Shown piece after piece: positions 32,395 to 59,658 of a DNA stretch of 64,000 bases. The notes beneath the pieces are model-generated. The model worked only from the letters and a program-made list of their open reading frames with translations, was not told the origin of the DNA and did no database searches. Numbering within the stretch: the stretch's first letter is position 1; each line of letters starts with the position of its first letter. The DNA lies in assembly GCA_944382835.1 (NCBI GenBank), contig CALWNP010000001.1:44324-108323 (forward strand). Direction: 5' to 3'. The position numbers and the translations under genes were made by a program. The stretch is from an uncultured Gemmiger sp. (GTDB taxonomy: Bacteria > Bacillota > Clostridia > Oscillospirales > Ruminococcaceae).

Positions 32395-33124
32395 TCACTC
32401 GTCGGCGGCGGCATCATAGCTGCCGGTGGTGTCCAGCACGATGGTGGAGCCCCGCCGCACCTGGGTGCCGGCCTGGGGATACTGGCTGGTCACCCGTTCC
32501 TCGGTGCCGTTGATCTGCACCGTCAGCTCGAACTCTGCCATCTTCTGTTTGGCGGCGGTGGCCCGCCAGCCGGTCACATCGGGGACGGTGGCAAAGTATT
32601 TTTCCTGTTCCTCAGGGGTGTACTGGGGCTGGATGCCCAGATAGGGCAGGCTTTTTTCCAGCACCTCGGCACAGACCGGCGCCGAGAGGGAGCCGCCGCT
32701 GGTGGTCCAGCTGTGGGGCTCATCCAGGCAGACCAGCACCGCCAGCTTGGGGTCCTCGATGGGGGCCACCGCCACAAAGCTGGCGATCCGGGCACTGGGG
32801 TCCTCGCTGTCCAGCTTCTGGCTGGTGCCGGACTTGCCCCCCACCCGGTATCCCGGCACCGAGGCATTTTTGCCGGTGCCGGTCTGGACGACCCCCTCCA
32901 TCAGCTCCCGCATCACCGCCGAGGTCTCCTCCGAGATCACCCGGCGCTTGACGGTGGGCTGGATTTCCCTGACCAGCTGGCCATCCGCATCGGTGATTTT
33001 GCTGACCAGATAGGGCTGCATCAGGTTGCCCCCGTTGACCACCGCCGCCACCGCGGTGATCATCTGCAGATAGCTGACCTTGCTGCTCTGGCCGAAGGAG
33101 CAGCTGGCCAGTTCCACCGGGCCC
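32395..33124 (-). pseudogene. C-terminal part of a split class B penicillin-binding protein (with PASTA)
   Basis: About 243 codons of a PBP2x/SpoVD-type transpeptidase. It starts abruptly at GPVELASCSFGQSSKVSYLQ, continues through GGKSGTSQK (the KTG-box equivalent) and ends with one PASTA domain (VPDVTGWRATAAKQKM ... TSQYPQAGTQV). The region before residue GPV is foreign: the frame continues into element DNA. The missing N-terminal part lies on the same strand at 58318-59658. Joined at the shared GGG (minus strand) the two give one open frame of 680 residues. Alone it lacks SxxK and SxN and cannot act. Confidence 0.92.
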
Positions 33125-33148
33125 GGCCGGTGCATTGTTTTGGACCAT
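33111..33148. other. Left attachment site of the element (attR/attL half-sites)
   Basis: The outer arm is PBP coding sequence (33111-33121). The core CCC is at 33122-33124 (GGG on the minus strand). The inner arm GCCGGTGCATTGTTTTGGAC continues to CAT at 33148. That 23-bp inner arm is the inverted counterpart of the arm at 58320-58342, with 20 of 23 bases matching. Confidence 0.85.
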
Positions 33149-33201
33149 GGCAACCTACACGAACAATGCGGGAGGTGATTTCCGCAGGACATCAATCCGT
33201 G

Positions 33202-33408
33202 TTACATGCGGAATAGGATGCTTCTCATTCGACTCATTGTATTATTGTAAAATGCTCTGTATCTTGTCGACGACAGCACTGTAACCATCAAAACTGCTGC
33301 CGGAACTGACAATACCAAATACACCACATCTGGCATTGGCCTCATAAAAGCAATTTTACTGTTTCCTGCCAGTTTTTCTATTTTGTACGAACACAAGCCC
33401 TCTGCCAT
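33202..33408 (-). CDS. Small ORF at the left end, one hydrophobic segment
   Basis: A 68-codon frame whose ATG overlaps the SDR stop as TGATG. It has a basic/neutral N-terminus and one hydrophobic stretch (PMPDVVYLVLSVPAAVLMVTVL), then a basic tail. No family is recognised. It may be a real small membrane protein ending the capsule operon or a remnant truncated by the element end, which is only 54 bp further on. Confidence 0.35.
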   Translation of the reverse strand: MAEGLCSYKIEKLAGNSKIAFMRPMPDVVYLVLSVPAAVLMVTVLSSTRYRAFYNNTMSRMRSILFRM

Positions 33409-34247
33409 CAGTAATCAACATCATCAAAGGTTAAAACCCCTGCTCCCCCGCTGAGGCTGATGATTTCACCAACCAGCATTCGCCCGCAGCTGGAAACCAT
33501 ATATTTTGCCAACTCGGCTACTTCTTCCACCGTTGCCATGCGGCCGGACGGATTTCTTGCCCAGGAAAGGTCTTCATTGGATGCCGACAACATTCCTGTG
33601 GCTGTCGGTCCGGGAGCAATTCCATTCACCACAATTCCATACCGAATCAAGCTTTTGGCCATTCCCAATGTCAACCCCCGCAACCCCCATTTGGAGATTC
33701 TGTATGCCGTATCAGCAGGCCGGAACGAACCTGTAGAAGCAATGTTTAGAATATTGCCTTTGATGGAATTTTCTTTCATGTAATTGGCAATGGTCTGGGA
33801 CAGGAACAGAGTTCCCTTCAGGTTGGTATCCAGCACACGGTCATACATTTCCTCCGAAATCGTGCCAAATTTTTCAGAGGAATTGGTGCCGGCCGAATTG
33901 ATAAGGATATCAATTCTAGGTTTTTGCTCCGAGAGGAATTTCTGCAGGACACCCTCCATTTCAGGTATATTTGCCACATCAAATGCCAACCCGGACACCG
34001 CACCAAAACTGCTAAGCTCCCGAATTGCAGCGTTCAGTTTTTCGGGATTGCGTCCACAGACAATCACAGTGGCTCCCGATTTCAGAAAGGTTTTTGATAT
34101 TTCCAAGCCGATTCCGCTTGTTCCCCCACTGATCAGTGCTGTCTTGCCCTGTAAAGTCTGATCTTTTGCAATTTCAATGACCACCGGAACGGTTTTCGGT
34201 TGGGGGGAAATTTTCTTGATCAACTTTTTGATGATTTTCCGGACCAC
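33408..34247 (-). CDS. SDR-family oxidoreductase of the capsule operon
   Basis: A 279-residue short-chain dehydrogenase. After a basic N-terminal helix (about 1-25) come the cofactor motif GGTSGIG (41-47), the NSAG motif, the catalytic Ser in NIASTGS and YRISK. The substrate is not visible. It lies 6 bp after the ThDP enzyme gene, start GTG behind AGAAGGTGA, so the two probably act in sequence, for instance making a modified sugar or acyl donor for the polysaccharide. Last clear enzyme of the operon. Confidence 0.85.
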   Translation of the reverse strand: MVRKIIKKLIKKISPQPKTVPVVIEIAKDQTLQGKTALISGGTSGIGLEISKTFLKSGATVIVCGRNPEKLNAAIRELSSFGAVSGLAFDVANIPEMEGVLQKFLSEQKPRIDILINSAGTNSSEKFGTISEEMYDRVLDTNLKGTLFLSQTIANYMKENSIKGNILNIASTGSFRPADTAYRISKWGLRGLTLGMAKSLIRYGIVVNGIAPGPTATGMLSASNEDLSWARNPSGRMATVEEVAELAKYMVSSCGRMLVGEIISLSGGAGVLTFDDVDY

Positions 34248-34253
34248 TCAGCT

Positions 34254-35987
34254 TCACCTTCTATTCAGAAAATTTTTGACACATTTCACTCCGTCTTTTC
34301 CGAGAATGCTTTTAGCAAGCTGTTTGGCACCTTTTTCATGAAGAATGTTGCTCATCATTTCCAAAGCTTTTCTCTCCCCTTCTGTCTCGGTAAACACTTC
34401 TATCAGCATGGGTTTATCCTGCGCCTCGGGCGAAAGAAGCTGGTCCTCCAGCTGTATAAATTCTTCTTTTGTGGAGGCCGAAGCATAATGGAACCCCAAA
34501 TCTGTCACATAGTGTCTGACCAAATCTGCGGATTGGTTTCCAAAATGCCCCGCTGCCGCCATATACAAATCTGCATCTTCTCCAAATGCCGCGGACGGAT
34601 GCCGATAATTTCTGAATTCCACCCCGCGCCCATTGTTCACGAGTATGATTCTGATATTTTTGGGCAGGTGACGATTGCCCAACGAGTTCAAATCATAGAA
34701 AAAGGCCAGATCACCGAGCACAACATAATGGATTGTAGCAGGGTCTGCAATCGCAGCGCCAATGGTGGTGGATAAAAGCCCGTCAATGCCGAACCCGCCT
34801 GTGTTTGACCAACATGTAATCCCGTTAGGGATGGCAAAGAAGTTCCAGTTGCGAAGGGAATTCAAAATTCCCAGCATCAAGAAAGAGTTTTCCGGAATGC
34901 GGTCGGATACCTGTCCGGCAATCCAAGCATTGGAAAACGGAAGCGCATTGGCATCAAATACCAATTTCTCACATTCTGTTTTCCATTCATCCAGATAAGC
35001 CGTCTTCTCGGGTCGGTCACAAGCACGGTCCGAATACGTCTTAAAGAAGAAGTACTCCGACATTTCAAAAACCGAATCCAATGTTTTAAAAGTATCTCTG
35101 ACCTCACCGTCGGGATTGACACGCCAGACTTTCTTTGCATTGAGGGCAATGTACGAACCGCTGACATCGCCAATGTGTATTGCCAGATCCATGTCGAACA
35201 TCTTGGATTTGGTCTGCACCTGTGCACTTAAAAGCGAAGGACAGACACGATATTTCCCGTAATAGTTGCTGGTATTGTCGCACAGGACAACCCCGTTGTA
35301 TCTGGCGCAAAACGCATCCACCGCAGCTGTCAGCTTATCGCTGAACGGTCTGTGGATACCCACAAACACCGCAACAGATGCTGCGGTGATGGACGGAAGT
35401 TCATCTTCATATCCATAGCGGGAAATCTTGCGGGCCTGTACAAGGGTATCGGTGAACTCTGTTAAATTACTGCCAATCAGATTGATCAGCACAGGTCCCC
35501 CGTTTTTGTGTCTCAGTTCCAGCAGGGCCCGATTCAGCTTCACATTTGCATCCCATTCATCCTTCGATGTATGAATGGTGTCAATCTGCACATGAGCTTT
35601 TACAATATCTTTCAAAGGAGAGCTTCTGTCAATAATCTGCGGGATCAGGTGCCCTATTTCACCGGGATGGGACATCGAGGTAATTGCCAGGATGGGAATG
35701 TTGTTATAATAGGCCTCGGTCATCGCGGAAATATAGTTTCTGGATGCCGTCGCTCCCGTACAGGACAAGGCCACCGGCTCCCCGCTCTGCACCGACAAAC
35801 CGCAGGCCATATATGCCGCCGACCGCTCGTCCACACAGGAATATACCTCAAAAAAAGGATCATACTGTACACTGGCAATAAAGGGCATGTTTTTCATGCC
35901 GGGGCTTACAATCACCTTGCGGATATTGTGCTGTTTCATAAGAGAAATTAACAACTGTACATTCTTTTCTGCAGAATATCGTCCCAT
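34254..35987 (-). CDS. Thiamine-diphosphate-dependent enzyme (MenD-like fold)
   Basis: A 577-residue ThDP enzyme. The N-terminal PYR domain has the activating Glu54 in VDERSAAYMACG and the conserved TGATASRNYISAMTEA. The C-terminal PP domain has the diphosphate-binding motif GDLAFFYDLNSLGN. Length and PYR sequence resemble MenD, but no other menaquinone gene is near, and placement in a capsule operon beside an SDR suggests a role in a sugar or acyl precursor. ATG at 35987 follows AAGGAGG. The reaction is unknown. Confidence 0.82.
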   Translation of the reverse strand: MGRYSAEKNVQLLISLMKQHNIRKVIVSPGMKNMPFIASVQYDPFFEVYSCVDERSAAYMACGLSVQSGEPVALSCTGATASRNYISAMTEAYYNNIPILAITSMSHPGEIGHLIPQIIDRSSPLKDIVKAHVQIDTIHTSKDEWDANVKLNRALLELRHKNGGPVLINLIGSNLTEFTDTLVQARKISRYGYEDELPSITAASVAVFVGIHRPFSDKLTAAVDAFCARYNGVVLCDNTSNYYGKYRVCPSLLSAQVQTKSKMFDMDLAIHIGDVSGSYIALNAKKVWRVNPDGEVRDTFKTLDSVFEMSEYFFFKTYSDRACDRPEKTAYLDEWKTECEKLVFDANALPFSNAWIAGQVSDRIPENSFLMLGILNSLRNWNFFAIPNGITCWSNTGGFGIDGLLSTTIGAAIADPATIHYVVLGDLAFFYDLNSLGNRHLPKNIRIILVNNGRGVEFRNYRHPSAAFGEDADLYMAAAGHFGNQSADLVRHYVTDLGFHYASASTKEEFIQLEDQLLSPEAQDKPMLIEVFTETEGERKALEMMSNILHEKGAKQLAKSILGKDGVKCVKNFLNRR

Positions 35988-36051
35988 TACCCTTGCCTCC
36001 TTCAGGTTTATGATCGGATGCGGACACATCGCCGTCTTGTTTGCAGCCGGA

Positions 36052-37458
36052 TCAGCCGGCTTTGAATCGGAGCAAAAATTTGTTGATGATCACCTTCAGC
36101 AATTTTCTGTTCATCAAGACTGCCAGCACAACCCCAACTACAAAATTGATTCCATTAAAGAACAGTGTGTTGATGTGAGACAAAACACTCATGACCACCA
36201 GAACGGCACCGCATCCAAAAATCAGGGAAAAATCATATGACATTTTCTGAAATTTTCTGATATCGAACATGCGAAATATCACCAGAAGAAAATAACTGAT
36301 AAAGGTTGAAAAAGATGCCGCATACAGTCCTATGGACCGAATCAACGCAAAATTTACGAGGAAATTGCAGATTGCCGCCAAAGATGTTGTCACACCGACA
36401 GACTTCGTCCGCTTGTGCGCGGCATAAATGCCGCCCAGAAACGACGCCAAAGTGGAGAAAAACATTGCGGCAAAAAGCCAGGGCATCTGGTAATAAGCAG
36501 CTTCATAATCGGCATTGATCAATATGGCAAACAGCAAAGGAGTTATGCCGATCAAAAGGCTTGTGGCCCCCACAAGGATCCGGAACAAGGCATCAAACAT
36601 GGCGCTGTAATAGGCCCCTGTATCTTTGGAATTGACCGTCAAAGATGCGTTTTCCTGCCATGCTGCCGAAAAGCTGGACTGAACGATGGTAAGAAGATTG
36701 GGGATCTTGTTGGCCACCGCGTAAATCGCATTCACCTCAACACCCAGTATGGCAGTGACAATAATTCTGTCGGAAAGATTCATCACCCAAGACGACAGTG
36801 AATTGGGAATCAGCGGCCATGAATAGGACAGCATCCTTTTTAACAACGGTCGGGAAAAGACCAGGTGCACATCTTTCCATACCCCACTGGCCGCAAGCAA
36901 AAACAAGGTTGCCACCGCTGATCCGATGATCATGGACAGCAGAAGGCCGTTTAATCCATCGTTTTTCAAACGGACCAGCAAAATAATAAAACACATATTG
37001 AGTACAGCATATAAAATGGAGCTTGCCGCGTAGGCAACGTTTCGGGACAATCCCCGAACCATCTGCTGTGTGGTGATGTAGATAATATCCAGAATAAAGT
37101 AGATGCAGATCAGAAATTTGGTGAGTGGCTCAATGCCCTGCAATACAAAAAACATGACCAGGGTACTGAGCGTCGCGGTTCCCAAGATGAAAATATAGGT
37201 GGTAGAGATCACATCCACACGCTGGTCATGATCATTTCGGCATTCAATCAAAAAGCGGAATACCCCCATATCCAGTTTCAAGACAATGATGGGGATAATC
37301 AGCGAGACCAAGGTATTGATCAAATCATAGGTTCCGTATTCTGCCTTGGTCAAATAGGTGGTCAGAATGGGCAGGGTAACCAATGTTGTCAGCTTCGGCA
37401 GCAACTGTCCAAAGGATATAATGATGGTATTTTTGGCTAATTCTTTTTCCCTCTTCAT
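36052..37458 (-). CDS. Polysaccharide flippase (Wzx-type)
   Basis: A 468-residue MOP-superfamily transporter with about 12 to 14 helices. It begins KNTIIISFGQLLPKLTTLVT, typical of polysaccharide/lipid II flippases, and has the Wzx-like TYLTKAEYGTYDL segment near 38-50. It moves the undecaprenyl-linked repeat unit across the membrane. The start overlaps the pyruvyltransferase gene as ATGA. Confidence 0.88.
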   Translation of the reverse strand: MKREKELAKNTIIISFGQLLPKLTTLVTLPILTTYLTKAEYGTYDLINTLVSLIIPIIVLKLDMGVFRFLIECRNDHDQRVDVISTTYIFILGTATLSTLVMFFVLQGIEPLTKFLICIYFILDIIYITTQQMVRGLSRNVAYAASSILYAVLNMCFIILLVRLKNDGLNGLLLSMIIGSAVATLFLLAASGVWKDVHLVFSRPLLKRMLSYSWPLIPNSLSSWVMNLSDRIIVTAILGVEVNAIYAVANKIPNLLTIVQSSFSAAWQENASLTVNSKDTGAYYSAMFDALFRILVGATSLLIGITPLLFAILINADYEAAYYQMPWLFAAMFFSTLASFLGGIYAAHKRTKSVGVTTSLAAICNFLVNFALIRSIGLYAASFSTFISYFLLVIFRMFDIRKFQKMSYDFSLIFGCGAVLVVMSVLSHINTLFFNGINFVVGVVLAVLMNRKLLKVIINKFLLRFKAG

Positions 37459-38696
37459 AAACTGCCTGCCTCGCATTGTTTGATGGCCTGATCTACTGCA
37501 TCAAAGCAGCTGCACTTTTGAAGCTGCGAAACCGTCTGCAGAATCTGGTTTTTCTTTTCCTCTCCATAGGTACAGTACAGACGGATGGCCTCGCACATTT
37601 TCCCGGTGTCCAGCGTCTTTCTCACATCAAATACGAAGGCTTCGTCTCCGAACAATCGGAATAGCTCCAGGTATTTGTCTGCCCATCCAATTGCAATACA
37701 AGGGACCCCCGCTTTAAACGCATGAACCAAGGAATGGTATCTGGCACCAATGATAAAATCCAGCTTTTGGACCAGCGCATCATAGGAAAAGCAATCAAAG
37801 TCGTCGGGCAAAAGCTGCACATGGGCCTCTTGGGCAAACATGGCTTTGATTTCTCTGCAGAACGACAGATCTTCACGGGAATGCCGAATCAGAACCACAT
37901 TTTTCTGTTGATCCAGCACCGTCTCTATGATTTTTTTGTAAAAATCCAGCAGTTCACTTTTGTTGTGACCGGACAGGGTCCGTATATTGGGGATCACGCC
38001 AACCGTGTTGTCGGGAATCTCCGGAATCTGTGCCGGCTTCACAGCTTCCGCATTCCGATAGATCACACTTTTTTCAGGTGTGGGATGACACAAAACCAGA
38101 TCCGGGCTCAGAGAGACGTTTTTGCAGTGATACCGCTCCTGCAGTAAATCTGCTCCCACCTTTTCTCTGGCGAAGATGGCCTTGGGATAGATTAGATTTT
38201 CCCGGATCAGCCGATCCATTTTTTCCTGATCCCGGCCATAGGAAAAGGGTCCAAAAGACTGCGGCATAAGTACCACTGGAATATTTCTCTGCTTTGCTTC
38301 AGAAATAATACGCAGATAATCGCTAGATTTTTTTTCTCCCCAAGAAGAAGAAAGCGCAAAGCCGCTGATATCAATGACGCAACTGATCTCTGGATAAATC
38401 GCCGCCAGAGTAGATTTTTTCTTGTATCCTGTGGGTCTTCCCAATAGTGTTTTCACCGCATCCTTTGCCAGGATCACCCCGGCGCCGAGCACGGGGTGGT
38501 TTACCATGCGATGCGCATCTTCATCCTCAAACACAATCTGAAAGGAATACGGCTGGTCTTCTGCATAATCAAAAGCAGAAAGCATGTAAATCTCACAATC
38601 AGGATATCTTTTGCGCAGTTGATCCACTGTAACAAACAGCATGGATTGTGCCCCTTTATTGATAAAATTGGAGCCGGTAATTAAGAATTTATACAT
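37455..38696 (-). CDS. Polysaccharide pyruvyltransferase family protein
   Basis: A 413-residue GT-B-like protein of the CsaB/WcaK family, which adds ketal pyruvate to sugars. It starts YKFLITGSNFINKGAQSML, has VIDISGFALSS and VVLMPQSFGPF, and a C-terminal half with VIRHSRED and FIIGARYHSLVHAFKAGVPC, all family hallmarks. Start ATG 38696 follows AGGTGAAAGG. The polymer made here is thus probably pyruvylated and acidic. Confidence 0.88.
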   Translation of the reverse strand: MYKFLITGSNFINKGAQSMLFVTVDQLRKRYPDCEIYMLSAFDYAEDQPYSFQIVFEDEDAHRMVNHPVLGAGVILAKDAVKTLLGRPTGYKKKSTLAAIYPEISCVIDISGFALSSSWGEKKSSDYLRIISEAKQRNIPVVLMPQSFGPFSYGRDQEKMDRLIRENLIYPKAIFAREKVGADLLQERYHCKNVSLSPDLVLCHPTPEKSVIYRNAEAVKPAQIPEIPDNTVGVIPNIRTLSGHNKSELLDFYKKIIETVLDQQKNVVLIRHSREDLSFCREIKAMFAQEAHVQLLPDDFDCFSYDALVQKLDFIIGARYHSLVHAFKAGVPCIAIGWADKYLELFRLFGDEAFVFDVRKTLDTGKMCEAIRLYCTYGEEKKNQILQTVSQLQKCSCFDAVDQAIKQCEAGSL

Positions 38697-38831
38697 ACCT
38701 TTCACCTGACATTTATGTTTCTTCTGGAGAATTCATCCTTTAAAGAGCTTTGTGATCTTCGTAGGTTTTCGGACGGTTCAAAACTTTATAATCGCAGCTT
38801 TTCTCACTTCACTGGTAACATCAACATACAC

Positions 38832-39743
38832 TTATTTCCGATTTTTCAGACAATAATATTGTCTCCACAGCCATGGACAGCCAAATGCAACTTTCTCTTT
38901 TATGGTCAAGGGACGGACCGCCTGAAGTTCTTTTGCGGCAAGCTGAATCTCCCCTCTTGTTCCGCCTGACAAGGCACTGTGGTAGAGCACACTATAATGA
39001 AAGTCGAAGAAGCTTCTTTTTTCCTGTTCTGTCAGCTGAGAAATCAGATCGGAAAACTTTTGGAACAATGCAATTTTATTTTCTCGGTACTTTTTGTAAG
39101 GCGGAATATTGCGCTCCAAAATATTTTTGCGAACCAGAATCTCATCCAATGCCTGCAGGTTATGTTCTTTCAGAATCCGCAGCATAAATTCAACGTCCTG
39201 ATAACGGATGAAACTTTCATCAAAACCGTTGACCGATTCAATCGCTTCCTTTTTGAGGAAGAGGTTGCTGCCTGTGCCCAGCATTCCTTCATTTAACAGC
39301 AAAGAACGCCATGCCTTTCCCTGTGCCGCAGGATGTACTTCTCCCCTTTTTTTGCCCTGAACATACAAATCCACCCCGGTATAAACCGCATCACACTGTG
39401 GATTTTCAGCAAACACATCCATACATCTGCGGACTCTGTCGGGATAATAGATGTCGTCATCATCCAGGAATGCGACAAAGCTGCCGGATGCAGCGCGAAT
39501 TCCTGTATTCCGTGCAGCCGCACCGTTCTTGTTATGAGCATGCTTGAGATATTTGACCCGCTGCTCCTCGGCAAACCGCTGCATGAGTGTTTCGGTACGT
39601 TTTCTTCCTATGGACCCCGGTTCATTATCATCAACGACAATGACTTCCACTTCGGGATATGTCTGCCCCAGCACGGATTCAATCGCCCTTTGTAACCCTT
39701 CATCTGCATTGTAACTTGGGATAACAACTGTAACCAAATCCAT
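38832..39743 (-). CDS. Family 2 glycosyltransferase
   Basis: A 303-residue GT-A enzyme: VTVVIPSYNADEGLQRAIES at the start, VIVVDDNEPGS, GAAARNTGIRAASGSFVAFL and the metal-binding DDDD in LDDDDIYYPDR. ATG at 39743 behind GGAAAGGAAACG. Its start lies inside the end of the neighbouring GT4 gene. A non-coding stretch of about 130 AT-rich bases (38697-38831) separates it from the next gene. Confidence 0.88.
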   Translation of the reverse strand: MDLVTVVIPSYNADEGLQRAIESVLGQTYPEVEVIVVDDNEPGSIGRKRTETLMQRFAEEQRVKYLKHAHNKNGAAARNTGIRAASGSFVAFLDDDDIYYPDRVRRCMDVFAENPQCDAVYTGVDLYVQGKKRGEVHPAAQGKAWRSLLLNEGMLGTGSNLFLKKEAIESVNGFDESFIRYQDVEFMLRILKEHNLQALDEILVRKNILERNIPPYKKYRENKIALFQKFSDLISQLTEQEKRSFFDFHYSVLYHSALSGGTRGEIQLAAKELQAVRPLTIKEKVAFGCPWLWRQYYCLKNRK

Positions 39744-39762
39744 TTTCGTTTCCTTTCCTGAC

Positions 39763-40971: not shown

Positions 40972-40987
40972 TTGCCCTTTACCCCAT

Positions 40988-42181: not shown

Positions 42182-42211
42182 ACTGCTTTCCCACAAAGTC
42201 AAGATGTCCGG

Positions 42212-42928: not shown

Positions 42929-42947
42929 CTTGATTTTCCCACCTCTG

Positions 42948-48916: not shown

Positions 48917-48963
48917 ACAAAGACCCAGCGGCATTACACAATACATACTGCCTCACTGGGTCT
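48917..48963 (-). promoter_or_regulatory. Long hairpin in the leader of the capsule operon
   Basis: AAGACCCAG (48919-48927) pairs with CTGGGTCTT (48955-48963), extended by CGGCA/TGCC. On the - strand it is followed by TTTGTCAT. It may be a weak terminator or an antitermination site, as found in leaders of long capsule operons. Confidence 0.5.
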
Positions 48964-49432
48964 TGACCACAAACCAGCATACCATAAGCGCAGGTCGGGG
49001 AAATTTTCTATTCATCTTCGGAAAGCACCGCCATCTCTTCGGTAAACTATTCTGTGGCTGTTCCACAACAATCACCCCAACAATGCGGTCTCCCGGCACC
49101 GAATTTCGGCCAAATATTCCCGCCATCGTCCTTTTCTATCACAACAGGACACTGTCACGCCAGCCATGAAACGTTATCATTATACCGCTGTTTCACATTT
49201 TTTTCAATAAGGGGGTCTCCAAAAGTAGAATTTGGCAGTTCTTTTTCGTACAGCAAACAAAAGCCATTCCTAAATTTAGATGAAATTTCTATATGTTTGG
49301 CATATTGTCCGAACAGGAAAAATGATTTTTGTCGAATTTTGTCCTTGACTTTCTTCTGCGTTTGATTCCTGAAGCCAAAATCGACCAGGGATGCTGTGTA
49401 AAGTCAAGACCAGCTGCCCGTTGCCCGCCGGC
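48964..49432. other. Intergenic region before the capsule operon
   Basis: Together with the leader hairpin these about 600 bases between the capsule operon and the recombinase stop hold no convincing gene. The frames crossing it are short and without ribosome sites. A -10-like GTATGCT lies near 48976-48982 (minus strand), without a good -35. A short hairpin GCCCGCCGGCTCAGCCGGCGGG follows the recombinase as possible terminator at 49423-49444. Confidence 0.5.
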
Positions 49433-50974: not shown

Positions 50975-51093
50975 GGCGCGTCCTCCTCCCCTGCCGGGTT
51001 CCAGTGGCGCAGCAGCGCCTCCAGGCAGGCCTCCAGGGTGGGGGCATCCGCCTCCCCGGCAAACCGGATGCAAACAGGGTTCTCTTCTTCCAT
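50971..51093 (-). CDS. Small 40-residue ORF coupled to the recombinase (TnpW-like?)
   Basis: A 40-codon frame with AAAGGGAGG upstream, ending CCATGA so that its stop overlaps the recombinase start. The sequence VCIRFAGEADAPTLEACLEA LLRHW has the pattern of small TnpW-type proteins encoded beside Firmicutes serine recombinases, judged by memory of their layout only. A role in recombination direction or translational coupling is inference. Confidence 0.5.
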   Translation of the reverse strand: MEEENPVCIRFAGEADAPTLEACLEALLRHWNPAGEEDAP

Positions 51094-51155
51094 GGCAGCC
51101 GCCTCCCTTTCCTGCCCCATTCTATGCGGCGGGGGGCGGGATTTTTCTGCCGTAC

Positions 51156-51189
51156 GAAAAAACCGGCACCGCCATGGCAGCGGTGCCGG
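51156..51189 (-). terminator. Terminator of the murQ-murP operon
   Basis: CCGGCACCGC (51163-51172) pairs with GCGGTGCCGG (51180-51189); on the - strand it runs into TTTTTTCG. Confidence 0.88.
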
Positions 51190-51203
51190 GGAAAAGGACC
51201 GGT

Positions 51204-52652
51204 TCAGGCCCGGGCGACTTCCTCCCGGGAGACAAAGGCGTTGGTGATCAAAAAGCCCATGACATAGCTGATGCCCAGCCCGATGCCGTAGGAGATCATG
51301 GACAGCACTGCCCCGCTGGGCCCGGCGGTCATCACCGGGAAGGCCAGAAGCCCCGAGGGGCCCCAGGTGGTGGAGGCCACCTCCATGGCCATGACAAAGG
51401 CACCGCCGAAGGCCGCCCCGAAGCCGGCGGTGAAGAAGGGCTTGCCCATGGGCAGGGTGACGCCGTAGATCAGCGGTTCCCCCACCCCCAGGAAGCCGGC
51501 GGGCAGGGCGCCGCCGATCACCGAGCACAGCCGCCGGTTGCCGGTCTTTTTGGCTTTCAGATAGATGGCAATGGCTGCCCCCACCTGTCCGGCCCCGGCC
51601 ATGGCCAGCGCCGGATAGAGGGTGACAAAGCCGATGGTTTCCAGCTGGACGGTGTAAAGGGCCACCAGCCCGTGGTGCATCCCCATGGCCACCATGGGCA
51701 GGAAGAGAGCCGCTGAGATAAACCCGGCCACAATCCGGATCAGCGGGTGGGGGCTCATGCAGATGGCCTCCACCACCCCGCAGAGCCCGGTGGAGACAAT
51801 GCCGGTCAGCGGCATGATGACAAAGACATAGGGGATGGCGCAGAGCACCAGGGTAAGCAGCGGGGTGACCATGACATCCAGGTTGTTGGGCACCCGGCGG
51901 TGGAGCGCCTTTTCCACCTTGGCCAGGACCCACACCCCGATGACAACCGCCAGCACGCCGCCGCGCCCGGCGCGCAGGATGGCCTCCAGCGGCTGCTCTT
52001 CATTATACAGTCCCACCACCTTGGCGATGGCATCGATGTTGCCCATGGTGGTCATCATGCCCAGCATCCCGCCCAGAATGGGGGTGGTGCCGAACCGCTC
52101 GGCGGCCCGGTAGCCGGCCCAGGCGGTCAGATAGGTCATGAAGGAGGCGTAGATCAGCGACAGCAGGTTGTAGACGATATTCCAGAATCCGTTGTCGGCA
52201 TAGCCCGGGTAGACCTGGGCCAGAAGGTTGGCCAGGCCGGAACAAAGCCCTGCCGCGATGATGCCTGGGATCAGCGGGACAAAGATTTCCCCGAAGGTCT
52301 TGAGCATGGATTTGATCCGGTTGTCCTTCTGCCCTGCCTGGACCGCCGCCTTGTTGGCCTGCCAGCCCTGCTCGGTGGAGAGGGCGGGCCCGGTGCCGGC
52401 AGGGATGCCCAGTTCTGCGCAGACTTCGGCGCACTGGCGGCTCTTGCCGGGGCCCACCACCACCTCGATGTGATTGGGGCGGTCATGGACCACCCCCAGT
52501 ACCCCATCCAGCTGCTTGAGGGCTTCCGACTGGAGCAGAGAATCGTCGCGGAGCTGTATCCGCAGCCGGGTCATACAGTGGGTGGCCAAGGTGACATTGT
52601 CCCGACCGCCGCAATGGGTAAGGATGCTTTGCACCAGTTCCTGAGTTGTCAT
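51204..52652 (-). CDS. murP: PTS EIIBC permease, MurNAc type
   Basis: A 482-residue sugar PTS permease. The EIIB domain (about 1-80) has the phosphorylated Cys26 in HCMTRLR; the EIIC domain (about 110-475) has ten or so helices with GxGEPLIYG-like [14 protein letters not shown]. No EIIA domain is present, as in MurP and sucrose-type EIIBC. The linked murQ makes N-acetylmuramic acid the likely substrate, imported as MurNAc-6-phosphate. It overlaps murQ as ATGA. Confidence 0.88.
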
Positions 52653-53569
52653 AATGATCGCCTCCTGTCCGTATCTTCCATCCGCAGGGCGTCGCGGATC
52701 CGCCCTCCGGCTTTGTCCAACAGTTGCCGGGCCCCGGCCGCATCCCGGCCGGTGAGAATCATGGTGATGGCCAGCTTGACCCCACCCCCTGCCCCGTCGA
52801 TGGCACGGCGGGCCTCGGCACGGGACACTCCGGTGGCCTCCATGACAATGTTCTCGGCCCGGGTCTTCAGCTTTTCATTGCTCTGCACCACATCCACCAT
52901 CAGGTTCTGGTAGGCCTTGCCCAGCCGGACCATGGCCGCGGTGGAGATCATGTTGAGAATCATCTTCTGGGCAGTACCCGCCTTGAGCCGGGTGGAGCCG
53001 GTGAGCACCTCGGGCCCCACCTCCACCTCGATGGCGATGTCGGCGGCCCTGCCCAGGGCGCTGCCCCGGTTGCAGGCAACGGCCACGGTGGTGCAGCCCA
53101 GGCTGCGGGCATAGTCCAGCGCCCCCAGCACATAGGGGGTTCGGCCCGAGGCGGCGATGCCCACCACCAGATCGGCCGGGCGCAGGTCATGATCCATCAG
53201 ATTCTGTCGGCCCAATGCCCGGTCATCCTCGGCTCCCTCCACCGGGAACCGCAGTGCCCGGTCGCCGCCGGCAATCAGCCCCACCACCAGGTCGGGGTCC
53301 ACCCCGAAGGTGGGCGGACATTCTGAGGCATCCAGCACCCCCAGCCGTCCGCTGGTGCCGGCCCCCAGGTAGAACAGCCGACCGCCTTTGCGGAAGGCAG
53401 TCTCGGCGGCTTCGGCCGCAGCGGCGATTTCGGGCAGCCGGGCGGCAATGGCCCGGGGGACCTTGCCATCCTCCCGGTTCATGGCGGTGACAATCTCCAA
53501 CGCGCTCATCCGGTCCAGCTCGGTGGTGGCAGGGTTGCGGGTTTCGGTCGTCAGCCGGTTCAGCTCCAT
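52649..53569 (-). CDS. murQ: N-acetylmuramic acid 6-phosphate etherase
   Basis: A 306-residue lyase of the SIS family that cleaves the lactyl ether of MurNAc-6-phosphate, giving GlcNAc-6-phosphate and D-lactate. It has the MurQ signatures [39 protein letters not shown] (phosphate-binding and catalytic Glu), [13 protein letters not shown] and [21 protein letters not shown] at 53569 follows AGGAGGTGA. The operon, with murP, recycles wall sugars, complementing the opp/NlpC operon at 4-11 kb. Confidence 0.95.
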
Positions 53570-53611
53570 CCGGTCACCTCCTGATCTCAAATGGTTTGTT
53601 CTCCTGCTTTC

Positions 53612-53675
53612 AGAATACGAGGCAGCAAGGCAGCTTGTCAACAAAATTGACAAATTTCATCCTTTGTCCCATAAT
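53612..53675. promoter_or_regulatory. Divergent promoters sharing one inverted-repeat operator (murQP / methyltransferase)
   Basis: On the - strand TTGACA (53641-53636) and TATTCT (53617-53612), spaced 18 bp, drive murQ-murP. On the + strand TTGACA (53647-53652) and CATAAT (53670-53675), 17 bp apart, face the methyltransferase. The two -35 boxes form TTGTCAA (53635-53641) and TTGACAA (53647-53653), a perfect 7-bp inverted repeat over five bases, a natural operator for both. Confidence 0.7.
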
Positions 53676-53822
53676 AATTGCGGTGGAAATGGTGAATCGG
53701 CCCCAAAACGGAGCCGGGCTCCTTCCCGCAAGGCGTATGGCTGCCCCCGGGGCCCATATGCTTTTTTCTTTGGGGAAGGGCCAGTTCCGCCGCAAGATCA
53801 AGGTTTGGGGAGAGGAAGTTTT

Positions 53823-54448
53823 ATGGAAACCAACTGCATCAATCCGGGGCAACCCGGCATCCGCAAGGGGGATGTCATCGCCTTTTTCGATCGCCTTGCC
53901 CCCGGCTGGGAGAAGGACCTGGTGGTGGATACGGCCAAGATCAACGCCATTCTGGACGCCGCCGGGGTAGGGCCCGGCAGCAGGGTGCTGGATGTGGCCT
54001 GCGGCACCGGGGTTCTCTTTTCCTTCTATCGGCAGCGTCAGGCGGCCGAGGTGTTGGCGGTGGATATTTCGCCCGAGATGGCCAGGATCGCGGCATCCAA
54101 CGCCCGGCCCCCCATCCGGGTGCTCTGCCACGACATCGAGACGCTGGACCCCGACGGCCGCTACGACTGCTGTGTGGTCTACAACGCCTTTCCCCATTTC
54201 CCCGACCCGGCCGGTCTGGTGGGGAATCTGGCCCACTGGCTGGTCCCGGGGGACGGCTGACGGTGGCCCACAGCATGGGCATCGGTCAGCTCAACCACCA
54301 CCACGCCGGCTGTGCCGCCAGCGTCTCACTGGCCATGCTGCCTGCCCAGGAACTGGCCGCCCTCTTTGAACAGTGGTTCACGGTGGACACGGTGGTGTCG
54401 GACGAGGGAGAATACATCGTCTCGGGCCGGCGGAAAGACCGGACATAA
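53823..54448 (+). pseudogene. Class I SAM methyltransferase with a frameshift
   Basis: The reading frame starts METNCINPGQPG, has the SAM motif VLDVACGTGVLF, AVDISPEMARIA and YNAFPHFPDP, then stops at 54260 in LVPGDG. The next frame continues exactly where the family would: LTVAHSMGIGQLN to a stop at 54448. One extra G in the G5 run at 54248-54252 would restore LVPGGRLTVAHS. So it is a single-base lesion in a homopolymer, which could be a sequencing slip, a phase-variable tract or an early pseudogene. The substrate of the methyltransferase is not visible. GAGAGGAAG precedes the ATG. Confidence 0.85.
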
Positions 54449-54461
54449 GAATCAGAAAAGC

Positions 54462-54516
54462 AAAAAGACATGGCTGCTGCCTGCGGGGCAGATCGGCCAT
54501 GTCTTTTGTTGTTTTG
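54462..54516. terminator. Bidirectional terminator
   Basis: AAAAGACATGGC (54463-54474) pairs with GCCATGTCTTTT (54496-54507), then GTTGTTTT. It ends the methyltransferase and the convergent VOC gene. Confidence 0.85.
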
Positions 54517-54525
54517 GGCAACGGC

Positions 54526-54909
54526 TCACTCGTGAAGTTCCAGCGGCAGGCCGTCGGGGTCAAAGAAGAAGGTCATGCTGGCACCGGTGTAGTCGTCCCG
54601 GCGGATGGGCTCACATCGGATGCCCAGTCCTTCCAGCTCCCGGACGGTGTCCTCCACGCTGTCCACCCGGAAGGCCAGGTGCCGCAGGCCGCAGGCTTCG
54701 GGACGGTTCACCCGTTTGGGCGGGTTGGGCTCCACAAAAATTTCCAGTTCGGTGTCATCGTTCACCCGCAGGTCCAGCTTCCAGTCCCCCCGGTCGGAGC
54801 GGTAGTTTTCCCGGATGACCGCAAAGCCCAGCTTGTCCACATAGAACTGCCGGGCAGCCTCGAGATCGGAAACAATAATGGCAACGTGGTGAATGGAATT
54901 CAACTTCAT
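54526..54909 (-). CDS. VOC-family (glyoxalase/dioxygenase-like) protein
   Basis: A 127-residue vicinal-oxygen-chelate protein: IHHVAIIVSDLEAARQFYVD at the start, LRHLAFRVDSVED in the middle and FFFDPDGLPLELHE at the end. Putative metal ligands are His7 or 8, Glu of LELEIFVE-type strand, His of LRHLAF and Glu126. Members of this short group include lactoylglutathione-lyase-like proteins of unknown substrate. ATG at 54909 behind GAAGGAGGTG. It has no obvious partner. Confidence 0.85.
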   Translation of the reverse strand: MKLNSIHHVAIIVSDLEAARQFYVDKLGFAVIRENYRSDRGDWKLDLRVNDDTELEIFVEPNPPKRVNRPEACGLRHLAFRVDSVEDTVRELEGLGIRCEPIRRDDYTGASMTFFFDPDGLPLELHE

Positions 54910-55019
54910 CTTCAACACCTCCTTCATCCATATTCGGGGCAATGCAGCCGCTGCGGGCTGTTGCTCTCTTCATTTCAGGCTGATTTCTTTCCGCAGTCCT
55001 GCGCGACGGGATTGCCGGA

Positions 55020-58000
55020 TCAGGACTGCCGGTAGTCATACACCGCATCGTACTCGTCGGCATCGGCGTTCAGGATCGCGCTGTTGCCCACCGTCGCCAC
55101 CTTCATCTGATCCAGCAAAATGCGCAGTATGGCCACTGCATCCTGCTGATCCTCCACGGTGGTGGCCTTGACCTGCTGAATCCACCGGTTCATCTGGTCC
55201 ACATCAAATCCACGCAGATCGTCCGTCATCGCGTTAATGGCTTCCTGGGTCTCGGTGGAGGGGGTTGTGATGATGCTGTACGCACTGATGATGTAGCTGT
55301 CCAGCTCTTCCTGGGTCAGTTCCATCTGTTCCAGCGCATCCGCCATTCCGCGAATGACCTCCACCGAGGCAGAGGCCCGTTGATCCGCATAACTGTAAAC
55401 ATAGACCTGTTCCAGGCTGTCGGCGAAGGAACACTCGGCCGAATAAGCCCATCCTGGATACCGCAGTTCCGGCAGCAGATATTGATCGCTCAGCGCCATC
55501 AGATAGGGGAATATCACGCCGGAAATCCCCTCCAGATTGTTGAGATACACCTCGCCATAGGTGTAGCAGAGAGACTCTTCGGTGATAATGCCGGTGCAGT
55601 CCGGGAAGACAGGCAGATCATAGTCTGGCACCTCTGCCGGATGGGAAGGCAGCGCTTCCAGAATCTTGCGGGTCGCAGCCTGGGTCGCCTCCAGTTCCCC
55701 ATCCGTCGTCACCAGCATGGAAATCATATGATCGCGCTGGCACAGCGTTTGGCCGATCGCATTCATTTTTTCCTGCAGCTCTTGCAGGGCATCGGGGTCA
55801 TCTTCCAGCTGCTGGTGCAGCCCGGACAAGAACTCGTAGCTCTCCGCGCCGGTCAGATAGGCGCTGTATTCCTGATTTCTGTCGGATGCGGTCCCCACCA
55901 CCGTCTGGGCCAGGTCCAGGGCGTTTCTTCTGGCCGGGTTTCGTTCCGCCAGCAGGGCATCCAGCCGCAGCAAAAGCGCATCCCTGTCATCCAACCGGAG
56001 GTTCTGGAAAAGATCCAGCAGCAGATTCAGGCTTTTCTCCTGATCGGCGGGATCATTGATCCAGGAGATCCGCACATAGGGGCGGGAAAAGTCCCCCGCG
56101 TTGGATGTCGGATAATAGTTCTCGATCCAGAAGCCGTTCAGGTATTCCTGTTTCAGCCCCTCGAGTTCGGCGGTGCTGTGTTCCTCCGTTCCCATATTTC
56201 CCACCAATCGGAGGTAGAGATCCAGATACTGGAGGTCTTGCCGGGAGATGCCGCTGGCATCCAGCAGAAGTTTGTTGTAGGCAATCCCCTCTGTGCCCAC
56301 ATCGGAGGAATAGTAGGTGATTCCCACCTCCGTCTGCCGGTTGTATTCCGGCCGGGGTGCGGGGTCGGGCAGATCGCTCACGGGAATGGTGAAATCATCA
56401 TTTGTCACATCCTCCTCCGCCCAGCTCTCATAGGCCTGGGTGTCCCGGATCAGCTGGTCCAGCTCCTCCTCCGACATCGAAGCCTTCATCTGCACCAGAT
56501 CGTCCTGCCGTTGGGACTCGATCTGTTCCGCCAGCCCCGGCTGAGGGACCGTGGTAACCAGCGCCGTGTTGGTACAATCCTGCAGGCCGCCGGCCAGCTG
56601 CCGGAACAGTGCCTGCCCTTCCGGTCCCGCCAAACGTTCCAGCGTGCTTTGCTCCTGGGCGAAGTAGTCGGTGCTGCCGTCAACGGCCCACTGGACCAGA
56701 ATATTGGTGAAATAGATTTCAATGGCTTTGCTGTTGGATTCCTGGGACAGATATTGGGTAAACCGGTTGATCTTGAGGGTCCGCTCCACCAAAGCGCTGT
56801 CCAGGCCATCCGCAGCGATGGATGCAAGGGTATCCTCCACCACCCGGCGGAAGGTCTGGGCATCCGCCGGATCCGCATTGTCCAATCCAAACATCAGCAC
56901 CGGTTTGAGGGCATCCGCCGCCAGAGATGCGGTGGCATTTCCCAGCCCGGCGCTTTTCATGTTTTGCTGAAGGACAGAATCGTTGGCATTGAGCAGGTCG
57001 CACAGCACACTGTACTGGTGCAGTGTCTCCATATTTTGGCCGTCCAGATCAAAGGCGTAATAGAGAACCGAGGCATCCTGGGTGGAATCCCCCTCATAGG
57101 CAGGAGCATCGCATTCCACCTCTTTGTATCCGGACTGGACCGAAGGCTGATCATAGGCCGACAAATCGGTGTGCTGATTGGGTTCCTGGGAGAGGTACTC
57201 GCTGTCCAGGAAGGTCAGGAAGCTCTCATAATCCAGATCCCCGTACAGCAGCAAAAGAGCGTTGTCAAAGTGATAGCACCGTTCATACAGCTGCATCACC
57301 TTGTCATAAGTCAGTTCGCGGTAGTTTTCCCAGGCCCGGCCAATCATGTTTGAGGCATATTCCCCCGGGTACAGGGTATCCATCACGTTGTTCCGTGCGT
57401 TTCCCCCAATGTCGGTCATATAGGACAGATCCTCGGTGAAGACCGTACCGCTCATGGTAATGTCGTCCTGGGGATCGGAAAGGGTGTAGCGCAGGGCTTC
57501 CCGCTTGAAAAAGTTCTCATCCGTAAGCACGCCGGGGCTGACCATACAGCTCAGGATTGCATCCGCCATATTGCGCAGCTGTTCCTCGCTCTGGCTGGCC
57601 ACCGGATACATGGTGAAGGTCTGGTAGGTAAAGGCATTGACATAGGTACTGTAGGTCTTGCCCATCAGATCATACATCAGGGTGTGGCTGGGGTATTTTT
57701 CCGACGAGCCCAGAATGGCATGTTCAAACACATGGTTGATGTCCGACTCATCGGCCATCGGGGTGCGGTACCCGATGGAAAACGCCCGGTTGGTATCCTC
57801 ATTTTGAATGTAGCAGAGCGTCGCCCCGCTCACCTCATGGCGGAAGGTGATGATGGTGCCCTTTGCCTCGGGGAAATCCTCCACATCCTCCACCACAAAC
57901 CCTGCGATGACCTGCCCCGGCACGGGCAGGTCCCCGGTTTGTGCCTCTTGCTCCGCGGAGGATGGAACGGATGTCAGACGTACTGCGGCCAGAATGACCA

Positions 58001-58052
58001 GAATCAGAATCACCAGCGCACCTGCCACGACAGAGACTCGTTTTTGCTTCAC
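55020..58052 (-). CDS. Membrane-anchored M16C metalloprotease (PreP/insulinase-like)
   Basis: A 1010-residue zinc protease. One N-terminal helix (about 9-26) without a lipobox anchors it, with the body outside. The inverted zinc motif HVFEH (107-111) is followed by AILGSSEKYP and the usual M16C region YSTYVNAFTYQTFTMYPV. The length and the four-domain layout fit presequence protease/falcilysin types that degrade short peptides in a closed chamber. ATG at 58052 follows GAGGAGC. Presence in a mobile element suggests a surface peptide-degrading or defence role; this is inference. Confidence 0.9.
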   Translation of the reverse strand: MKQKRVSVVAGALVILILVILAAVRLTSVPSSAEQEAQTGDLPVPGQVIAGFVVEDVEDFPEAKGTIITFRHEVSGATLCYIQNEDTNRAFSIGYRTPMADESDINHVFEHAILGSSEKYPSHTLMYDLMGKTYSTYVNAFTYQTFTMYPVASQSEEQLRNMADAILSCMVSPGVLTDENFFKREALRYTLSDPQDDITMSGTVFTEDLSYMTDIGGNARNNVMDTLYPGEYASNMIGRAWENYRELTYDKVMQLYERCYHFDNALLLLYGDLDYESFLTFLDSEYLSQEPNQHTDLSAYDQPSVQSGYKEVECDAPAYEGDSTQDASVLYYAFDLDGQNMETLHQYSVLCDLLNANDSVLQQNMKSAGLGNATASLAADALKPVLMFGLDNADPADAQTFRRVVEDTLASIAADGLDSALVERTLKINRFTQYLSQESNSKAIEIYFTNILVQWAVDGSTDYFAQEQSTLERLAGPEGQALFRQLAGGLQDCTNTALVTTVPQPGLAEQIESQRQDDLVQMKASMSEEELDQLIRDTQAYESWAEEDVTNDDFTIPVSDLPDPAPRPEYNRQTEVGITYYSSDVGTEGIAYNKLLLDASGISRQDLQYLDLYLRLVGNMGTEEHSTAELEGLKQEYLNGFWIENYYPTSNAGDFSRPYVRISWINDPADQEKSLNLLLDLFQNLRLDDRDALLLRLDALLAERNPARRNALDLAQTVVGTASDRNQEYSAYLTGAESYEFLSGLHQQLEDDPDALQELQEKMNAIGQTLCQRDHMISMLVTTDGELEATQAATRKILEALPSHPAEVPDYDLPVFPDCTGIITEESLCYTYGEVYLNNLEGISGVIFPYLMALSDQYLLPELRYPGWAYSAECSFADSLEQVYVYSYADQRASASVEVIRGMADALEQMELTQEELDSYIISAYSIITTPSTETQEAINAMTDDLRGFDVDQMNRWIQQVKATTVEDQQDAVAILRILLDQMKVATVGNSAILNADADEYDAVYDYRQS

Positions 58053-58131
58053 ATGGTTGCTCCTCTTGCATAGAAAAATCGTGATCCCATTATATCAGGA
58101 AATTCGGGAGGCACAAAGCGTTCTTCACAAG

Positions 58132-58187
58132 AAAAACAACAAAAAGGATCCCCGCCAGAGCTTTTCCTGTAACTCCGGCGGGGATCC
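58132..58187 (-). terminator. Strong terminator near the right end of the element
   Basis: GGATCCCCGCC (58146-58156) pairs with GGCGGGGATCC (58177-58187); the - strand then runs TTTTTGTTGTTTTTC. It lies between the split PBP and the M16 gene and could block read-through from the PBP promoter. Confidence 0.85.
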
Positions 58188-58312
58188 CCTATCCCATGAA
58201 CCGTTCTGCCCCATAGCGACCAAGGGACCAAACAGCTCATGGGTTTCCCCGGCAGACTGTAAGAACGAGCCCGACGGGCCTGTGGCCTTTTGTTTTTTAT
58301 CGTTATTATGTT
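58188..58312 (-). ncRNA. Candidate structured RNA at the right element end
   Basis: Between the att site and the terminator, the - strand can fold GCCCGACGGGC-type and ACCCATGAGC/GTTCATGGGAT stems, the latter enclosing about 40 nt. With the terminator it has the form of a small RNA or leader of the M16 gene. No known family is recognised. There is no ORF here. Confidence 0.3.
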
Positions 58313-58317
58313 CTATT

Positions 58318-59658
58318 TTATGGTCCAAAATTCTGCACCGGCCCCATCCGGTCGGCGGTATAATACTCGCTGCGTTTGATCTCGCCGGGCAGGTCGATGC
58401 CGGTGGCCTCGGTGAGGCCGAAGGCGGCAAAGTAGTTGCAGAAGTTCTGCTGCCCCAGCCGCGCCCCCACCTGGATGAAGCAGGGGTTGCAGGAGGCGGC
58501 CAGCCCTTCGGCCAGGGTTTCCAGGCCGTGGATGTGGCCGTTGGCGCAGCGGAACCGGGTGCCCGCCACATTGATGGACCCGGCGCAGACAAAGGTGGAA
58601 TCCCGGGTGCAGACCCCGGTGTCCAGCGCCGCCGAACAGGTGATGAGCTTGAAGACGCTGCCCGGCTCGTAGAGGTCGCTGATGGCCTTGTTGCGCCACT
58701 GGGCCTGCTGGGCGGTCTGGAGGGCGGCGGTGCGTTCCTCCCCGGTCAGGGCGTCCACCTGGGCCCGCAGCTCCTCGTCCACGATGGTGCGGGGGTTGTT
58801 GGGGTCGTAGTCCGGCTTGGTGGTCATGGCCAGGATCGCCCCGGTCTGGACATCCATCACGATGCCCACCCCTCGGGCCGCCACCTTGTGCTCCTGCACC
58901 GCGGCGGCCAGGGCGCTCTCCAGATACCGCTGGATGTTGGCGTCGATGGTCAGGGTCAGGCTGTTGCCCTGGGCCGGCGCCACCAGGGTGTTGTACTGGG
59001 TGGGCATGTCGTAGCCCCAGGCGTTCTTGGCGGTCAGCACCCGGCCGTTTTCCCCGGTCAGTTCCTCGTCATATTCCAGCTCCAGCCCCCACAGCCCGGC
59101 GTTGTCCACGTCGGTGAAGCCCAGCAGCACCCCCATGAAGTCCCCCTGGGGGTAGACCCGTCTGGTGTCCTGCCGGATCTGGATGCCCTCGGCCCCGTGC
59201 TCGCTGCACCAGCGGCGCACCGCGTCGGCCATCTCCTTGTTCACCCGGCGGCGGAGCAGGCAGTCGTTGGAGCTGCGCTGGCTGAACTTTTCCAGCGTCT
59301 CGGCGTAGTCCAGCTCCAGGATCTCGCTCATGGCCCGGGCGGTCTCCTCCACCAGGCTGTCGTCCAGCTCCCGGGGGGCGGCCCGGATGGTCCAGCAGGT
59401 CTCGCTGGCCGCCAGCAGGGTGCCGTCGGCCGAGGTGATCTCCCCCCGGGCGGCGGGGATCACGGTGTCCCGCAGCTGCTGGTCGGCGGCCCGGGCGGCG
59501 TAGCCTTCGGGGTCGGCCAGCTGCAGCCAGGCCAGCCGTCCCAGCAGCCCTCCAAAACAAACCACCGAAAACACCGCCGCCAACACCCGTACCCGACGCC
59601 CCATCCCCCGGTCCTGGGCCGGGCTGAGATGGCGCTTGGCTTGCCTTCTTGTTTTCAC
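58318..59658 (-). pseudogene. N-terminal part of a split class B penicillin-binding protein
   Basis: A 446-codon fragment of a PBP2x/SpoVD-like transpeptidase. A membrane helix lies at about 24-44, a dimerisation domain follows, and the transpeptidase domain begins with SVFK (Ser334, Lys337) and SCN (389-391). It runs to GIDLPGEIKRS and YTADRMGPV, then nine foreign bases-worth of residues and a stop in element DNA. The KSG box and PASTA domain are in the other fragment at 32395. GTG at 59658 is chosen from the GGGGGTG site. The fragment is anchored but catalytically incomplete. Confidence 0.92.
58320..58358. other. Right attachment site of the element
   Basis: The inner arm runs ATGGTCCAAAATTCTGCACC to GGC at 58342. 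The core CCC is 58343-58345, then PBP coding sequence. With the left site it shares the core, and the inner arms are inverted copies. Together they recreate a dyad attP. Confidence 0.85.

Follow-up and report, generated by a model that had tools for sequence, protein, structure and literature searches.

Several sporulation genes have been described that are interrupted by an intervening element, and the statements made here on those systems follow excerpts of the papers cited. The skin element lies in sigK of Bacillus subtilis and Clostridioides difficile, where it is cut out by its own large serine recombinase (LSR), which restores a gene of the mother cell; in C. difficile, a small recombination directionality factor acts under the control of sigma-E and SpoIIID (PMC5025042, PMC4191935, PMC517825). 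SP-beta is excised precisely from spsM of B. subtilis during sporulation, with SprA and the 58-aa accessory protein SprB (PMC4191935), gin occupies gerE in Bacillus cereus ATCC10987 (PMC5595907) and yin occupies yabG in Clostridium botulinum (PMC10747680). Small partners of the recombinase set the direction and the timing of the reaction in C. difficile and B. subtilis (PMC5025042, PMC4191935). The present work concerns a comparable arrangement in a 64,000-nt stretch, hereafter the window, of an uncultured Gemmiger sp. (contig CALWNP010000001.1 of assembly GCA_944382835.1, positions 44,324 to 108,323), in which a spoVD-like gene for a class B penicillin-binding protein (PBP) is divided by an island carrying an LSR gene. 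Judged from sequence alone, this island is quite probably a skin- or gin-type intervening element of spoVD that would be excised precisely, presumably in the mother cell. A literature search over open-licence PMC papers found no title describing a split spoVD, which does not show its absence from print.

The split gene, its junctions and its recombinase

The two parts of the spoVD-like gene (Table 1) are both open, lie on the minus strand in the correct order and add up to a single frame, as 1313 nt (59658-58346) and 730 nt (33124-32395) give 2043 nt, or 681 codons. The 5' part matches PF03717 and profile positions 2-141 of the 299 of PF00905, and the 3' part matches positions 149-299 of the latter profile together with PASTA (Pfam). 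The frame of the 5' part continues into the arm of the element, where it meets a stop at 58318. These coordinates and domain matches bear out the claim of an earlier note on this DNA that one PBP gene lies in two halves on one strand and in the right order around an insert of ~25.2 kb, and that the halves join exactly at GGG into 681 codons; the gap measures 25,221 bp. Among 35 Gemmiger genomes, the window's own (G000) included, the gene was whole in 23, split at the same codon in 10 and unscorable in 2. An uninterrupted gene, for which the earlier note had proposed to look in relatives, is therefore present in 23 of the 33 scorable genomes of the genus. A misjoined contig, named in the same note as a possible flaw, was ruled out by the identical split in nine other genomes, including the single-contig G026 (2.99 Mb) and G034 (3.24 Mb). 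The isolate G. gallinarum DSM 109015 is also among the split genomes, its locus (L027) having the coordinates of the match in G010.

Table 1. Features of the split spoVD-like locus in the window
Feature	Position	Strand	Remark
Intervening element	33125..58345		25,221 bp, counted between matching bases of the GGG core
attL	58313..58352	-	host ATGGG, then element arm (..GCCGGTGCAGAATTTTGGACCAT)
attR	33116..33150	-	element arm ATGGTCCAAAACAATGCACCGGCC, then host GGGCCCGGTG
spoVD-like class B PBP gene, 5' part	58346..59658	-	PBP dimer domain and first half of transpeptidase domain
spoVD-like gene, 3' part	32395..33124	-	KSG box and PASTA; start without hydrophobic segment
Large serine recombinase (PF00239, PF07508, PF13408)	49433..50974	-	same strand as PBP gene
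40-aa open reading frame, candidate directionality factor or leader	50971..51093	-	4-nt overlap with LSR start
Weak sigma-E-like block GAAAAAT-N14-CATAGAAT	51119..51147	-	upstream of the small frame; matrix p=0.056
Low-G+C polysaccharide locus	33408..48909	-	
Further cargo: phosphotransferase system (PTS) EIIBC, SIS-domain protein (read as MurQ-like), VOC protein, M16 peptidase	51204..58052	-	
Host flank, MacB-like ATPase and FtsX-like permease	27104..32187	-	

The junction is a GG core inside the codons Met-Gly of spoVD. Read on the minus strand, the left end of the element is ATGGGGCCGGTGCAGAATTTTGGACCAT and the right end is ATGGTCCAAAACAATGCACCGGCCGGGCCCGGTGGAA, and a 33-nt inverted repeat (79%) sits exactly at both junctions (33116-33148 and 58320-58352). 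The left host flank is conserved up to ATGGG in the ten split Gemmiger genomes, while the right host flank starts at GGG in all nine that have a 3' half. The arms (about GGTCCAAAA...TGYACC and its inverse), as read by eye, recur with substitutions in 10 of 10 attL and 9 of 9 attR sites. Integration by an LSR at a GG core leaves such ends, and the ends of the element resemble LSR att sites. Among the features by which sporulation intervening elements are recognised, a shared core (here GGG), inverted arms and an empty attB (here in the genomes with a whole gene) were found. An invertible segment was ruled out because the arms are inverted but the gene halves are codirectional, so that inversion could not rebuild the gene; the arms fit attP half-sites.

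The window element encodes a site-specific recombinase, present in 8 of the 10 split genomes, with the copy in G034 interrupted. LSR orthologues (68-73%) occur in these 8 and in none of the 23 whole Gemmiger genomes; in 7 of the 8 the gene shares a contig with the two halves that flank it, and the halves of G008 are on two contigs. At E<=1e-140 the LSR was detected in 6 of 396 sampled genomes of the family, all belonging to this genus. No close relative was found in IMG/VR viral contigs by a search with exact-peptide seeds, which detects close relatives only. Upstream of the LSR gene, and touching it or nearly so, all 8 Gemmiger elements with an LSR carry a small open reading frame (ORF) of 37-40 residues. 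An ORF comparison, in which the G008 and G034 elements were partly covered, gave the LSR and this candidate directionality factor or leader as the only genes common to the 8 elements.

The best NCBIfam match of the interrupted gene is TIGR02214 (SpoVD), with 540 bits in the whole gene of the relative G017 and 409 bits in the PBP of the division (dcw) cluster. The latter, another class B PBP, is encoded between mraW and murF on contig 30 and rules out the essential FtsI as the interrupted gene. The earlier note, which had placed the joined protein with PBP2x/SpoVD proteins by its size, is to be corrected to this extent, that the split gene is not the division PBP. What is cut into codirectional parts of one frame is a sporulation-type gene, SpoVD-like by its best match and under the cut-off of that model. 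In loci of other genera, an FtsW/SpoVE-type gene adjoins it in 8 of 16 cases (L050-L064, L071), and the only one scored (L054) reached 343 with spoVE vs 337 with ftsW. SpoIVA was found in 34 of the 35 Gemmiger genomes, as was a strong Spo0A_C match, and G000 has a SigE-like gene and a third SEDS gene best fitting spoVE, both under cut-off. The core sporulation genes searched for (SpoIVA, Spo0A, SigE, SEDS) thus appear to be kept in the host. Gemmiger formicilis is described as not spore-forming. In B. subtilis, spoVD is among the SpoIIID-bound regions according to an excerpt of the relevant study (PMC517825).

Occurrence of the split gene and selection on its halves

The split Gemmiger genomes are G000, G002, G003, G006, G008, G010, G022, G025, G026 and G034. 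The two left out of the counts are G012, in which the contig ends before the junction, and G021, in which the gene was not found. The 3' half of G003 was not recovered, so that 3' comparisons cover nine genomes. In these nine the reading frame agrees across the split and the 3' lengths equal those of whole relatives. The frame is unbroken in all ten 5' parts and in all nine recovered 3' parts. Three whole genes were each flagged for a single stop in an aligned stretch: the homology match of G009 (5') has no stop, and the stretches of G001 and G015 (3') run beyond a shortened 3' end. The PASTA domain was lost in one lineage (G002, G025, G026, G034 and others), where 170-179 codons instead of 242 separate the junction from the stop, in split and whole genomes alike.

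The gene is split at the same codon in six Fournierella-group genomes (L052, L055, L056, L057, L060, L071), recorded as Fournierella massiliensis, Gemmiger sp. An87/An50/An194 and uncultured Oscillospiraceae. Their LSRs, 43-50% identical to that of the window, start 157-224 nt beyond the junction. All six genomes yielded the 3' half, and in four it lies about 12.2 kb further along the contig of the 5' half. No broken frame was seen in these six 3' parts, a TGA flagged for L203 being located in the arm before the junction. In a tree, the LSRs of each genus form one clade, although the tool warns that long branches meet. The L052 contig is a perfect inverted repeat of two 5.9-kb arms, each with a 5' spoVD part and a recombinase, and is perhaps an assembly artefact.

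Selection was measured on both halves while the gene is split. G025 and G026 share the insertion and flanking cargo; their 5' parts differ by 23 synonymous and 2 nonsynonymous changes (18.7 expected, p=3.5e-12 against neutrality) and their 3' parts by 9 and 4 (9.8 expected, p=0.0009). In six pairs with a whole gene in Gemmiger, the ratio of nonsynonymous to synonymous divergence (dN/dS) was 0.08-0.21 for the 5' and 0.07-0.33 for the 3' region. The Fournierella set consisted of 15 pairs, all split. Its four closest pairs (among F424/F425/F426, and F427/F428) gave dN/dS of 0.036-0.115 (5') and 0.073-0.120 (3'), with synonymous divergence (dS) of 0.25-0.38 (5'), 0.29-0.42 (3') and 0.30-0.50 (LSR). 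Within the trio F424-F426, dN/dS was 0.036-0.082 (5') and 0.073-0.108 (3'), and dS was 0.30-0.40 for the LSR vs 0.25-0.37 for the halves. F423 compared with this trio gave dN/dS of 0.09-0.11 (5') and 0.12-0.15 (3'), and dS of 0.42-0.45 (5'), 0.65-0.76 (3') and 0.74-0.82 (LSR). The similar dS of LSR and gene, together with the low dN/dS, indicates that in the close Fournierella pairs recombinase and gene diverged together while the gene was split, both halves being under constraint. In the 8 Gemmiger genomes with an LSR, DNA trees of the LSR and the PBP show no conflict at any resolved fork, the 5' LSR piece of G034 having been excluded from the LSR alignment.

Proposed excision at sporulation and its rivals

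Preserved halves, with different islands at the same spot in two genera, suggest that excision rebuilds the gene at sporulation. According to this model, the LSR island would sit in spoVD at the GG core, and growing cells would carry the split gene and the cargo. The recombinase, working in the excising direction and perhaps helped by the small coupled protein, would join attL and attR, probably in the mother cell. The island would be released as a circle, leaving an unscarred in-frame spoVD from which the cortex transpeptidase could be made. The spore would retain the unexcised chromosome, so that gene and island would both be inherited.

A further-reaching version, whose chances are put somewhat short of even, holds that spoVD has been the docking site of one recombinase lineage since before the parting of Gemmiger and Fournierella. 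The split gene's own transcription would then trigger its repair, the mother cell would discard exchangeable islands, and excision would gate the cortex step. The trigger is suggested by the LSR gene lying behind the 5' half, with no promoter of its own in sight in two Fournierella genomes (157-174 nt past the junction). In vegetative cells the islands would stay in place as exchangeable cargo (surface polysaccharide, CRISPR-Cas, PTS), to be lost only from the mother cell as it dies.

Control by sigma-E, with the consensus KMATATT/CATACAMT, was examined upstream of both genes. Of 34 genomes, 20 have a sigma-E-like site (at most 4 of 15 mismatches) upstream of spoVD, against 6.0 expected by shuffling; upstream of the LSR the site is present in 7 of 8 (1.5 expected), at a position that is not constant. 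A stricter pattern was present upstream of spoVD in 17 of 34 (0.09 expected) and MATA-N16-CATA upstream of the LSR in 7 of 8 (0.04 expected), both patterns having been chosen after inspection of the sequences, which are related to one another. Whole loci of other genera have such a site upstream of spoVD in 5 of 7 cases (no shuffle control). Four of the six Fournierella LSRs have a site at most 4 off, and the other two LSR genes follow the split gene at 157 and 174 nt, codirectional with it. The spoIVA promoters could not be used as a yardstick for sigma-E, as the upstream gene abuts spoIVA.

Several observations weigh against an element excised at sporulation. No excised form, either as attB in a split strain or as a circle, was seen, and a scan of viral contigs gave no match to the attP pattern. 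TIGR02214 stayed below its cut-off (688) in every protein tested. No LSR was found in G002 and G003, their contigs ending soon past the junction, and in G034 an additional insert of about 66 kb interrupts the LSR gene. The sigma-E-like sites are patchy: scored with a matrix derived from the spoVD sites, the LSR block reaches significance in 1 of 8, and the split Fournierella spoVD genes have a site in 0 of 6 (5-6 mismatches; no shuffle control). The 8 cross-subgroup Fournierella pairs have dN/dS of 0.33-0.55 in the halves, which is still below 1 (p<=0.002). The remaining points concern G008, G034 and the trees, and they favour a rival reading, namely an insertion hot spot in which a mobile LSR island repeatedly disrupts a dispensable spoVD and the halves are intact only through recency. 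The 3' half of G008 has 14 nonsynonymous codons vs 4 and 3 in whole sisters, and looks relaxed. On the PBP and rpoB trees (no rpoB was recovered from 8 of the 35 genomes, including G025), the split genomes cluster no more than under shuffling of the labels, 59 and 220 of 500 shuffles giving values as low, so that gains or losses are frequent. Of the 7 changes of state on these trees, at least 6 are forced by well-supported branches, and they could be repeated precise losses, repeated gains or both. The LSR of G034 differs from those of G025 and G026 by a dS of 0.17-0.22 while the gene differs by 0.70-0.84, and the LSR protein tree pairs G026 with G034 weakly (91/76). The greater closeness of the LSR means that elements also move, and the G034 element looks transferred. 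Cargo also differs between close relatives.

Such a hot spot is nevertheless unlikely. Selection acts on both halves of G025 and G026, which have the same insertion, and on those of the Fournierella pairs in which the LSR diverged about as far as the gene. Nor was a broken frame found in any of the ten 5' and nine recovered 3' parts of Gemmiger or in the six 3' parts of Fournierella.

It is also improbable that the island is a reversible switch of growing cells, as described for yin, leaving and re-entering the gene in a subpopulation whether or not the cells sporulate, with the excised cells using the gene. The alternation of whole and split states between sister species would agree with such a switch, and the excised and integrated forms of yin coexist at all time points, as an excerpt of the yin study states (PMC10747680). 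The contig of G012 (L048, contig C101) stops about 30 nt before the core, which a mixture of the two states in the sample might explain. However, the interrupted gene is of spore type, the host has kept its set of sporulation genes, and an island-free chromosome would lose the island for its offspring unless the circle persists. Finally, a split protein with separately made halves working together is hardly credible, since, for all that both frames are open and under selection, 3 of 9 3' halves have no in-frame start before GPV and none of the 9 has a hydrophobic segment at its start (hydrophobicity over 19 residues peaks, at 1.45-1.76, only 121-173 residues in), while the partner half works outside the membrane.

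Island cargo and comparison with known intervening elements

By its gene content, the window insert is an island of mainly polysaccharide genes. The polysaccharide locus encodes a predicted sugar transferase, UDP-glucose dehydrogenase, glycosyltransferases, a protein with a weak Wzy_C match, a Wzx-like protein, a pyruvyl transferase, a thiamine pyrophosphate enzyme and a short-chain dehydrogenase/reductase. Polysaccharide genes are also found in the G025 and G026 elements, and in L057 about 6 kb behind the junction. The G022 element carries a type I-E CRISPR-Cas set (L107:4436-13690), with Cas3, Cse1, Cse2, CT1975-like, Cas5, Cas1 and Cas2 fused to an exonuclease domain. Element lengths are about 10.0 kb (G006), 20.9 kb (G025), 21.2 kb (G010), 27.1 kb (G022) and 29.3 kb (G026), and about 81.0 kb in G034 with its nested insert. 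That insert (C1 about 2613376-2679823; L116, L117) has three tandem serine recombinases at its right end.

The second cargo region of the window includes a broken methyltransferase frame on the plus strand (53388-54448), interrupted near 54260; its homologue in L119 is not interrupted. The window (53676-54942), G008 and G010 have VOC, methyltransferase or FadR-type genes within the element, but in G017 and G019 a VOC gene directly follows the whole spoVD (loci compared: L119, L120, L110, L111). An exchange of such genes between island and flank can be guessed at. Outside the element, the MacB-like/FtsX-like flank is also found downstream of a whole gene in 8 of 45 loci (L023-L067), within 1 kb in 6 of these 8. 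On the other side, between spoVD and GntR/ABC genes (59797-61532, plus strand), there are a small ORF read as BlaI-like (no NCBIfam match at 1e-10) and a protein with M23-type and weak BlaR1 matches. A GntR gene is close to spoVD in several relatives.

The likeness to skin and SP-beta drawn in the earlier note holds for the LSR, the att arms, the empty sites, the spore-type target and the preserved halves. It fails for the content of the insert, as none of the 18 insert genes of the window scanned with Pfam is a phage gene and the insert cannot be called a prophage; the G025 element has a weak phage replication-protein match, under cut-off. With this element, spoVD would join the sporulation genes with intervening elements as a new target, in a commensal host group and with island cargo. 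The phenomenon would extend from Bacillus, C. difficile and C. botulinum to a cell wall synthase gene and to common gut commensals. Detection of the repaired gene by PCR would reveal active sporulation in Gemmiger and its kin. The cargo would illustrate the exchange of loci for surface polysaccharide and defence at one constant position that is guarded by development.

Compared with the systems known from the excerpts cited, the element is similar to gin (28.6 kb) in its size, its lack of phage genes, its serine recombinase, the short shared junction sequence and the split sporulation gene. It differs in that gin has three recombinases and GirX and lies in gerE (PMC5595907), whereas here one LSR with a coupled 40-aa ORF lies in spoVD with mostly polysaccharide cargo, in two genera. 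Skin is prophage-like and interrupts a sigma factor gene (PMC5025042, PMC4191935, PMC517825), whereas the present element is an island in the gene of a cell wall enzyme. SP-beta is a live phage (PMC4191935), in contrast to the scanned insert of the window. As in yin, the recombinase gene lies downstream of the 5' half and codirectional with it, between att repeats; yin is prophage-like and was found in one strain (PMC10747680), whereas the split spoVD-like gene recurs in 16 genomes, 10 of Gemmiger and 6 of the Fournierella group.

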